This document shows positions 38,276 through 39,934 of a DNA stretch of 64,000 bases, in pieces (the first letter of the stretch is position 1; each line of letters starts with the position of its first letter). The position numbers were made by a program, and so were the translations under genes. The notes below the pieces were generated by a model. It saw only the letters and a list, made by a program, of their open reading frames with translations, was not told the origin of the DNA and made no database searches. The DNA is from Bacilli bacterium (lineage in GTDB: Bacteria > Bacillota_I > Bacilli_A > RF39 > UBA660), in NCBI GenBank assembly GCA_017398945.1, contig JAFQES010000018.1, positions 1 to 64,000 of the forward strand, written 5' to 3'.

Positions 38276-38304
38276 TTGTTTTATAAATATACTTTTTATA
38301 TAAT
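38276..38304 (+). promoter_or_regulatory. Promoter of peptide gene 1
   Basis: TTGTTT (38276-38281), 17 bases, perfect TATAAT (38299-38304) followed by GC. Predicted start near 38311 at GGATATA, the left arm of the 5'-3' pairing. Confidence 0.75.
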
Positions 38305-38372
38305 GCAATTGGATATATTTAATTAGCGTTAGGTGCACTCCTTTACATCAAACTGCAAAGGAGGTGGATTTT

Positions 38373-38450
38373 ATGACAAATAGAGAAAAATCTCAATTTA
38401 TTATAATCATCCTCTTATTTATTCTAGTATTTGTAATACTATTTAAATAA
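38373..38450 (+). CDS. Hydrophobic 25-residue peptide 1, candidate type I toxin
   Basis: The product is MTNREKSQF followed by a 15-residue aliphatic/Phe segment and a final Lys. It is short enough to insert in the membrane as one helix with a charged N terminus, like type I toxins of Firmicutes. AAAGGAGGTGG, the best ribosome site in the window, lies eight bases before the ATG. The leader segment CTCCTTT (38338-38344) can pair perfectly with AAAGGAG (38357-38363), hiding that site. Two paralogues follow. No named family is recognised. Confidence 0.75.
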   Translation: MTNREKSQFIIIILLFILVFVILFK

Positions 38451-38566
38451 AAAAAGCACACTAACGCTCAAGCTTGAGTCTTAGTGTGCAACCAAAAACT
38501 TTGGAGTGTACCTAACCTTGCGAAAATTAGATATATCCTTTTTTATTATATTCAAGTTGCCTTGAC
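38446..38566 (-). ncRNA. Predicted antisense RNA of peptide gene 1
   Basis: A minus-strand promoter, TTGTCA, 17 bases, TATATT (38573-38601), points at the 3' end of the peptide unit. A minus-strand terminator, GCACACTAA...TTAGTGTGC (38456-38489) followed by seven T, lies directly after the peptide stop. The RNA would be about 120 bases and fully complementary to the 3' untranslated part of the peptide mRNA, including its pairing arm at 38503-38538. Confidence 0.65.
38503..38546 (+). terminator. 3' end of peptide mRNA 1 and long-range pairing arm
   Basis: 38503-38538 (GGAGTGTACCTAACC ... TAGATATATCC) is the near-perfect reverse complement of the mRNA start at 38311-38341 (GGATATATTTAATT ... 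TTAGGTGCACTCC), and is followed by TTTTTT. The local hairpin is weak (CTAA/TTAG), so termination may rely on the long-range stem. Confidence 0.5.
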
Positions 38567-38710
38567 ATATCCAATATATCATAAATACAATGACTTGACA
38601 ATTAGTAAAATTTAATAATTTGTTTATTATAATTATCAAAATTTATCATAATATTCATTAAAAAAATAATACTTTAATACAACATATAACAATAATTTAA
38701 TTTTAGTAGT

Positions 38711-38739
38711 TTGCTATATCCCCTATCGTCTTATATAAT
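38711..38739 (+). promoter_or_regulatory. Promoter of peptide gene 2
   Basis: TTGCTA (38711-38716), 17 bases, TATAAT (38734-38739) followed by GC; same layout as copies 1 and 3. Confidence 0.75.
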
Positions 38740-38815
38740 GCTTTTTGGATACATTTGAAATATCAGATGTTTTCCCTTTCGATAATCTTTAGATTAAAGA
38801 AAGGTGGTGATAATT

Positions 38816-38893
38816 ATGACTAAAAGAGAATTCTCTCAATTTATTATAATTATACTATTATTTTATATAGTAATCACCTTACTATATAAATAA
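38816..38893 (+). CDS. Hydrophobic 25-residue peptide 2, candidate type I toxin
   Basis: The product is MTKREFSQF followed by a hydrophobic segment (IIIILLFYIVITLLY) and final Lys, the same length and plan as peptide 1. GAAAGGTGGTGA precedes the ATG. The leader can form a hairpin in which CCTTTC (38775-38780) pairs with GAAAGG (38799-38804), with an inner AATCT/AGATT stem, so the ribosome site is covered. Confidence 0.75.
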   Translation: MTKREFSQFIIIILLFYIVITLLYK

Positions 38894-39010
38894 TAAAAAC
38901 ATCTGATTTCAACATTAGTTGATTTCAGATGCTCATCCAAATAAGGGATTACATCTGATTCACACAATCAAATGTATCCTTTTTTATTTTATGCAAGATT
39001 ACTTGCTTAC
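38889..39010 (-). ncRNA. Predicted antisense RNA of peptide gene 2
   Basis: Minus-strand promoter TTGTAA, 17 bases, TAACAT (39017-39045). Minus-strand terminator stem CATCTGA-AAT-CAAC / GTTG-AAA-TCAGATG (38900-38931) then TTTTTATTATT, ending at the peptide stop codon. Length about 120 bases, as in the other copies. The promoter is the weakest of the three. Confidence 0.58.
38951..38986 (+). terminator. Terminator of peptide mRNA 2
   Basis: ACATCTGATT, CACAC loop, AATCAAATGT, four bases and then six T. The region 38943-38979 is also complementary to the mRNA start (38747-38778). Confidence 0.7.
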
Positions 39011-39155
39011 ATACCAATGTTATCACACATTAATTTAATTTACAATATTTAAAGTTTCTATAAATGAATATTAACATTAACAAAAGATTACCTAAAGGTT
39101 TTACTAAAAGCAATAATTAGCATCTAATATAGATCGAAAATCAAATTTTAGTCAT

Positions 39156-39184
39156 TTGCTATACTTTTCCCCATCTTATATAAT
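39156..39184 (+). promoter_or_regulatory. Promoter of peptide gene 3
   Basis: TTGCTA (39156-39161), 17 bases, TATAAT (39179-39184). Confidence 0.75.
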
Positions 39185-39260
39185 TGTTCTCAGATACATT
39201 TAAAAAGTCAGATGTTTTCCCTTTCAAATATCTTACGATAAATGAGAGGTGGTGATAGTT

Positions 39261-39338
39261 ATGACTAAGAGAGAAACTTCTTTTTTTCTTATAATTATAC
39301 TATTATTTTTTATAGTAATCCCCTTACTATATAAATAA
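39261..39338 (+). CDS. Hydrophobic 25-residue peptide 3, candidate type I toxin
   Basis: The product is MTKRETSFF followed by LIIILLFFIVIPLLY and a final Lys. It has the same length as peptides 1 and 2 and keeps T2, R4, E5, S7 and the last Lys, so the reading frame is under selection. GAGAGGTGGTGA precedes the ATG; CCTTTC upstream can pair with GAGAGG with one mismatch, a weaker version of the sequestering hairpin. Confidence 0.75.
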   Translation: MTKRETSFFLIIILLFFIVIPLLYK

Positions 39339-39450
39339 TAAAAACATCTGATTTCAACAATAGTTGATTTCAGATGCCCCAAATTCAGGGATTACATCTG
39401 ATTCACACAATCAAATGTATCCTTTTTTATTATATTCAAGTTGCCTTGAC
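39331..39450 (-). ncRNA. Predicted antisense RNA of peptide gene 3
   Basis: Minus-strand promoter TTGTCA, 17 bases, TATATT (39457-39485), the same boxes as copy 1. Minus-strand terminator at 39345-39376 plus T-rich tract, ending at the peptide stop. About 120 bases. The promoter lies 12 bases beyond the end of the same-strand GNAT gene. Confidence 0.65.
39394..39428 (+). terminator. Terminator of peptide mRNA 3
   Basis: ACATCTGATT, CACAC, AATCAAATGT then ATCC and six T, identical to copy 2. 39387-39422 is complementary to the mRNA start at 39193-39223. Confidence 0.7.
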
Positions 39451-39496
39451 ATATTTAATATAACACAATCAATTTAAATTGACAATAAGTAAATTT

Positions 39497-39934
39497 TTAA
39501 TTTATAAATTTTACATATCCAACTTCTTTATTAAATTCAAGACTTTCGTAAAGTTTTTGAGCCGCTTCATTATCTTTTTCTGCCAGCAATGCAACGAAAG
39601 CACAATCTTTACTTTTAGCATAATCATAAACATACTCCAATAATGTAGTTGCAATTTTTTGTCTTCGATATGCTTTATGAACTGAAACATTCCATATAGT
39701 TAAAAATGGTTTTAAATCTTCAACAATATCATGATTAATTATAAGAGATGTTATCCCTACTACTTTATTATCAATTTTAGCAACAATATGATGATAGTCG
39801 GGATTATTTTCTATTTTTTCATAATTATTTAGCAATTTTTCAAAATTAGTCTTTGTATCGTGATTATCATCATATATTTTGACAGCTTCTTCTAAATCTT
39901 TATTAGTTAATTTTTCTATTATTATTTCATTCAT
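39497..39934 (-). CDS. GNAT-family N-acetyltransferase
   Basis: 145 residues with the Gcn5-type fold: VVGITSLIINHD, then WNVSVHKAYRRQKIATTLLEYVYDYA, the acetyl-CoA pyrophosphate loop (RRQKIA in place of the usual RGxGIG), and FVALLAEKDNEAAQKLYESLEF at the C terminus. The substrate is unknown. GGTGAT lies before the ATG. It is the nearest gene to the peptide array, on the strand of the antisense RNAs, with no clear terminator between. Confidence 0.85.
   Translation of the reverse strand: MNEIIIEKLTNKDLEEAVKIYDDNHDTKTNFEKLLNNYEKIENNPDYHHIVAKIDNKVVGITSLIINHDIVEDLKPFLTIWNVSVHKAYRRQKIATTLLEYVYDYAKSKDCAFVALLAEKDNEAAQKLYESLEFNKEVGYVKFIN

Follow-up and report, generated by a model that had tools for sequence, protein, structure and literature searches.

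The subject of this study is a cluster of small genes from a Bacilli bacterium (GTDB lineage Bacilli_A; RF39; UBA660), lying in a window of 64,000 nucleotides that was analysed as a whole (contig JAFQES010000018.1 of assembly GCA_017398945.1, positions 1 to 64,000). Positions 38280-39500 of the window consist of three direct repeats with a spacing of about 443 bp. On the plus strand, each unit carries, in order, a promoter, a leader, a strong ribosome-binding site, an open reading frame (ORF) of 25 codons and a 3' region of about 95 nt with a terminator at its end. On the minus strand, each unit carries a promoter of the form TTGnnA-17-TGnTATnAT and a terminator hairpin by the stop codon of the peptide gene. 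Based on the comparative analysis described below, it is highly probable that the three tandem units belong to a new, lineage-specific family of type I toxin-antitoxin modules.

The original prediction, made from the sequence alone, had described convergent minus-strand promoters and terminators in these units. We found the signals as described (Table 1). The promoters of units 1 and 3 were returned by the promoter scanner and that of unit 2 was recognised by reading, all with the 17-base spacing, and the three hairpins fold with a U tract after each. The prediction had also held that three units keep promoter, spacing and terminator independently. They are not independent, because they are tandem duplicates of one another (73-86% identical pairwise), and the orthologous locus of a sister species (DNA 91-95% identical) has two units against three in the window. 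Nor do the promoter matches alone make chance unlikely, as had been argued: this AT-rich region contains 40 promoter-like matches, and 43.3 +/- 7.0 are expected from shuffles. Since their frequency equals that of shuffles, such matches by themselves prove nothing in the window. A simple terminator scan of the region returned no terminators. When folded, the predicted antisense RNAs (115-120 nt) gave z scores of -4.0, -6.3 and -5.9 against shuffles for units 1, 2 and 3.

Table 1. Features of the three units, with positions in the window
Feature	Position	Strand	Evidence
Unit 1 message promoter, TTGTTT-17-TATAAT	38276..38304	+	sequence reading; hexamers commonest among relatives
Unit 1 predicted message with panhandle	38311..38545	+	fold, -79.7 kcal/mol, z -10.3
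Unit 1 hairpin masking the ribosome-binding site (CTCCTTT / AAAGGAGG)	38339..38364	+	fold; same state in relatives
Unit 1 peptide, MTNREKSQFIIIILLFILVFVILFK	38373..38450	+	class A, dN/dS 0.22
Unit 1 predicted antisense RNA	38446..38566	-	fold and family-wide conservation
Unit 1 antisense terminator hairpin by the stop codon	38456..38489	-	fold, conserved position
Unit 1 antisense 5' hairpin, TCAAG-GCAA-CTTGA	38552..38565	-	fold and family comparison
Unit 1 antisense promoter, TTGTCA-17-TATATT, TG ahead of -10	38573..38601	-	promoter scan and family profile
Unit 2 message promoter, TTGCTA-17-TATAAT	38711..38739	+	promoter scan and relatives
Unit 2 predicted message with panhandle	38747..38985	+	fold, -79.6 kcal/mol, z -11.8
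Unit 2 peptide, MTKREFSQFIIIILLFYIVITLLYK	38816..38893	+	sequence reading, dN/dS
Unit 2 predicted antisense RNA	38889..39010	-	5' hairpin 38993-39006, terminator hairpin 38900-38931
Unit 2 antisense promoter, TTGTAA-17-TAACAT, TGA ahead of -10	39017..39045	-	sequence reading and family profile
Unit 3 message promoter, TTGCTA-17-TATAAT	39156..39184	+	promoter scan and relatives
Unit 3 predicted message with panhandle	39192..39428	+	fold, -71.6 kcal/mol, z -9.2
Unit 3 peptide, MTKRETSFFLIIILLFFIVIPLLYK	39261..39338	+	sequence reading, dN/dS
Unit 3 predicted antisense RNA	39331..39450	-	5' hairpin 39436-39449, terminator hairpin 39345-39376
Unit 3 antisense promoter, TTGTCA-17-TATATT, TG ahead of -10	39457..39485	-	promoter scan and family profile

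The predicted antisense gene across the family

Relatives of the units were searched for with a junction motif, TTTTTATTWTATKCAAGNTNNCTTG on the plus strand, allowing up to 3 mismatches in the genome count. The motif occurs 13 times in the source genome of 1.2 Mb, and the reversed pattern does not occur. In the same family, 76 of 145 genomes have the motif and about half are without it. A class-wide draw of genomes returned it in only three genomes outside the family; one of these, from another family (G314), has a real unit at a contig end, and the other two are candidates with one-mismatch matches. A scan of named genomes gave at least 116 stretches. Those listed all come from uncultured bacteria whose genomes were assembled from metagenomes, largely of animal guts, and most bear the label Bacilli or Tenericutes. 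These bacteria probably belong to the GTDB order RF39. We cut 175 distinct units from the loci, 130 of them with an intact peptide. Two motif-bearing viral contigs were rejected, as they show a terminator followed by CAAG..CTTG and have neither peptide nor promoter. Phages searched with the class A peptide, plasmids searched with the class C peptide and viral contigs searched with a neighbour gene as bait gave no match.

The promoter profile was built from 126 units aligned on the junction motif, and the promoter region beyond the motif had played no part in their selection. On the plus strand, the columns of the antisense -10 element are conserved as A96 T88 A59 A86 T99 A97 (in %), and those of the -35 element as T88 n n C89 A92 A96. 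The minus-strand consensus is TTGnnA, a 17-nt spacer and TGnTATnAT; apart from the free n, the hexamer columns are conserved at 86-99%, and the spacer drifts. Of the 130 intact units, 127 have a terminator-like hairpin with an A-run no more than about 22 nt from the stop codon. In class D this hairpin begins right at the stop codon. According to the original prediction, the antisense RNA would cover only the 3' untranslated region. This holds for the peptide class of the window, but in class E the terminator hairpin takes in the last peptide codons, and the terminator U tract of classes C, D and F is coded by the final Ile-Lys-Lys codons.

The predicted antisense RNA begins with a CAAG-GNAA-CTTG hairpin, mostly with GNRA loops, and this 5' end is common to all of the roughly six peptide classes. 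RNAalifold missed the hairpin owing to misaligned columns, and we therefore tested it directly. A stem of at least 4 bp is present in 203 of 215 units found via the peptide, versus 16% of shuffles; many of the loci in this set had nonetheless first been fetched by the motif. The stems vary but stay complementary (CAAG, TGAAG, ATGAGA, ATGAGC, GTCTT, ATGGAG). In the antisense RNA of class A, hairpins show 84 double-sided compensatory cells against a mean of 22 and a maximum of 38 in 200 shuffles. At the sequence level, the units thus have what a gene for a cis-acting RNA antitoxin should have, namely its own promoter, its own terminator and complementarity to the message, the last being in cis by construction. 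Convergent antisense units over the 3' untranslated region, as first proposed, have strong comparative support from the promoter columns and the position of the terminator among relatives.

Some units depart from this plan. In genome G063, four units (L252, L263, L272 and L273) are without the antisense 5' hairpin, and the U tract of the message is followed, with hardly a gap, by a -10-like sequence. In a class A unit of another genome (L262; G115:C15:3600-4300), the 3' region is broken directly past the antisense terminator hairpin by foreign-looking sequence with an inverted repeat. This may be an insertion through which the antisense promoter was lost. The peptide of this unit has an unusual serine in its core.

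Predicted messages and peptides

Among relatives, the message promoter has TATAAT in 86 of 121 units, and TTGTTT is the commonest -35 element. The first 30 or so bases of the predicted message pair with its last 40 to form a panhandle. With its own ends the mean panhandle energy is -35.0 kcal/mol, compared with -21.5 for the tail of another unit, taken from a sample of unit pairs, and -14.4 for shuffled tails, and in 122 of 126 units the panhandle is stronger than in the top 1% of shuffles. Pairing mostly begins 5-7 nt past a TATAAT box, and the message would therefore be closed from its very first nucleotide. Such long-distance closure between 5' and 3' ends, a feature of hok/Sok and aapA/IsoA, is thus present in the predicted message folds.

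In addition, the ribosome-binding site is enclosed in a local hairpin. Within the coding regions of units 2 and 3 (38862-38890 and 39307-39335), the Ile-Thr/Pro-Leu codons (ATCACCTTA / ATCCCCTTA) are partly complementary to the ribosome-binding site of the same unit and form a stretch resembling an anti-Shine-Dalgarno sequence.

The encoded peptides have 24-31 residues (25 in the three units of the window), 63-85% of them hydrophobic, and a basic N-terminus, which is the form of the small membrane-spanning peptides of type I systems. They fall into about six classes, beginning with MTKREFSQF, MSKKDFLIF, MKKKDLLISF, MKTKTFIIK, MRKSEKYLC and MKKRTFIVK. Length, basic ends and hydrophobic core are retained throughout. 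Class A has a ratio of nonsynonymous to synonymous substitution (dN/dS) of 0.22, and the classes together span 0.12-0.50, indicating purifying selection.

By reading, 22 of the 175 units keep the antisense motif beside a peptide gene that can still be recognised but is damaged by a frameshift, a stop, loss of the start or truncation of an end. Two of these have a changed start codon only and may work. In the unit at C15:105782, a relative of the window's units within their own genome, codon 5 is TAA. Across genomes, the units are tandem, multicopy, patchy and often broken, a pattern that would be expected of a toxin.

Three further loci were noted during reading. Beside the unit at C27:43317, a second one (L012; G000:C27:43640-43664 and upstream) has a class B frame, SKKDFLILFLLIIILLLISLLFLILR, with no ATG, GTG or TTG at the start of the frame and a decayed antisense motif. 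L048 (G023:C59) begins as class A and passes into a class B tail, which suggests a hybrid of two neighbouring units and recombination between modules. On the minus strand of L010 (G000:C15:90500-91700), about 200 nt past the unit, there is a small ORF rich in Tyr, Gly and Pro (MYYNTYYKDGDRIIFPFLTGALVGG...).

Proposed mechanism and alternatives

Based on these features, we propose the following mechanism. Transcription from the TATAAT promoter would give a message of about 235-240 nt that encodes a membrane-spanning peptide of 25 residues, the putative toxin. Because of the panhandle fold and the hairpin over the ribosome-binding site, this message would be made in a poorly translatable form. 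Just past the end of the message, the extended -10 promoter on the minus strand would give an antisense RNA of about 120 nt, with the GNRA hairpin first, then the complement of the entire 3' untranslated region, and the terminator by the peptide stop codon. In the cell, this RNA would form a duplex with the tail of the message over about 90-95 nt. The most likely outcome is cleavage by RNase III, whose gene is present in the genome, and decay of the message. The peptide would be made only when the antisense RNA runs short. The original prediction had the anatomy right; the panhandle, the antisense GNRA hairpin, the genome-wide family and the type I toxin-antitoxin layout were not part of it.

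As for the brake itself, the modelled accessibility of the ribosome-binding site was considered. Over 122 units, its mean unpaired fraction is 0.20 in the full-length message, 0.18 after trimming and 0.18 with the tail blocked. Since in silico trimming of the 3' end at the stop codon leaves the site closed and antisense binding changes little, RNase III decay driven by the antisense RNA is most likely the main brake, and the panhandle would serve as a second lock. A type I variant compatible with this proposal is that the antisense RNA takes the 3' tail from the panhandle and the freed 5' leader then clamps the ribosome-binding site, as in bsrG/SR4. The antisense RNA and the leader do compete for the same tail, and in some units blocking the tail in the model makes the site still less accessible (for example 0.29 to 0.14; 0.16 to 0.05). 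However, the small mean change favours decay, and we regard this variant as possible but rather unlikely. Release of the panhandle as the main translation switch was also considered and set aside, as the modelled site access does not support it.

More speculatively, the 5' module common to all antisense RNAs of the genome (the GNRA hairpin and an A-rich linker, which lie apart from the stretch that can pair with the message) could be a handle for one nuclease or RNA-binding protein. In this case, about a dozen toxin modules would be released or silenced together as a network. We consider this an unlikely, tentative idea.

Some results weigh against a type I toxin-antitoxin system controlled in this way. 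Searches of Pfam, NCBIfam and Rfam with the peptides and the DNA gave nothing above threshold, so that no known toxin family is recognised; the ribosome-binding site is closed in every modelled state; and the units, having been selected by their antisense motif, give no measure of whether loss is rarer for the antisense part than for the peptide. The peptide might instead be a small membrane protein with a physiological role, such as a subunit of a transporter or membrane enzyme, whose dose is set by the antisense RNA. Purifying selection, strong ribosome-binding sites and a peptide that is intact in most units would suit such a role. However, about 20 of the 175 units, including C15:105782, keep the antisense motif beside a broken peptide gene, a genome may hold up to 13 copies in six peptide classes, units are gained or lost in tandem between sister species, and about half of the genomes in the family do without them. 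The matches to the subunits KdpF and SecE in the family library are also below cut-offs. We therefore judge a non-toxin role improbable. That chance promoter- and terminator-like sequences simply travelled with a small peptide gene as it was duplicated in tandem, as the shuffle-like frequency of promoter matches and the paralogy of the three units might suggest, is refuted for the family by conservation and compensatory change over peptide classes and genera, and this explanation has practically no weight.

Relation to known systems

Models of known type I systems did not recognise the modules. No Rfam type I antitoxin model, RatA included, matches at its gathering score: only tRNAs in the window reach such scores, and the rest are weak, unrelated matches. 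The TxpA/BsrG model (Hol_Tox, PF16935) has its best matches in the genome at no more than 13.1 bits (cut-off 23.3), and not at these loci. The Fst/par model (PF13955) gave no match at E<=10, and no control genome passed its cut-off either. Sub-threshold Rfam matches to scaDm46E3, rli36 and SprD were rejected as chance. A text search of the literature for type I toxins and RF39 returned nothing, and one for type I toxins and Tenericutes returned the phylum merely named among three with known type I systems. On this evidence, the family appears to be new and lineage-specific within the type I toxin-antitoxin kind, and T1TAdb or the 2010 survey may already list some of the peptides.

If our interpretation is correct, uncultured gut bacteria with reduced genomes possess a large, hitherto unnamed family of peptide toxins under RNA control. 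This family would combine a 3'-overlapping antisense RNA with a 5'-3' closed message, control principles that are usually described separately. Covariation-grade models would make such modules, invisible to protein annotation, findable. The question is then raised of why 13 copies are kept in a genome of only 1.2 Mb.

Several known systems share parts of this design. The zor/Orz and Ibs/Sib systems of E. coli are also repeated modules with very short hydrophobic toxins (zor is tandemly duplicated; IbsC has 19 and ShoB 26 residues) (PMC8309996), but they belong to another lineage and place the antisense RNA differently. RCd8-RCd10 of Clostridioides difficile are convergent, overlapping toxin and antisense genes with long complementarity; their toxins have 50-53 residues, and no panhandle is described in the passages on them (PMC6563280). 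The fst/RNAII (par) system resembles the units in its convergent toxin message and antisense RNA and in its Gram-positive-type lineage. In fst the two RNAs share a bidirectional terminator, whereas here each RNA has its own.

The closest resemblances are on two sides. On the one hand, aapA/IsoA of Helicobacter and hok/Sok have a 5'-3' closed message, layered hiding of the ribosome-binding site and multicopy chromosomal modules, and in aapA and hok the closed full-length message is inert until its 3' end is trimmed (PMC6733600). In those systems the antisense RNA is directed at the trimmed message, at its 5' part or leader; here, it would cover the 3' untranslated region only, and trimming leaves the site closed in silico. 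On the other hand, bsrE/SR5, bsrG/SR4 and txpA/RatA share with our units a small hydrophobic peptide, a convergent antisense RNA at the 3' ends and a ribosome-binding site in a short stem (PMC6562991, PMC7430163). The 3'-overlap antitoxins of B. subtilis share 100-140 bp with the message, leading to RNase III decay, and SR4 additionally tightens the stem at the ribosome-binding site (PMC6562991). Nearest in size is bsrE/SR5, with 30 residues, a 256-nt message and a 114 bp overlap at the 3' ends (PMC7430163). Compared with these three systems, our units show no peptide or RNA sequence match, a shorter antisense RNA (about 120 nt), a message whose two ends close on each other, numerous chromosomal copies and an antisense 5' module common to unrelated-looking peptides. 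Long-range closure in 3'-overlap systems may not be wholly new, because a P1 helix has been described in bsrG, its 3' part lying within the antitoxin-binding region (PMC7430163). By analogy, the family would seem to be built like bsrE/SR5 and bsrG/SR4, with the addition of a panhandle like that of hok and aapA.
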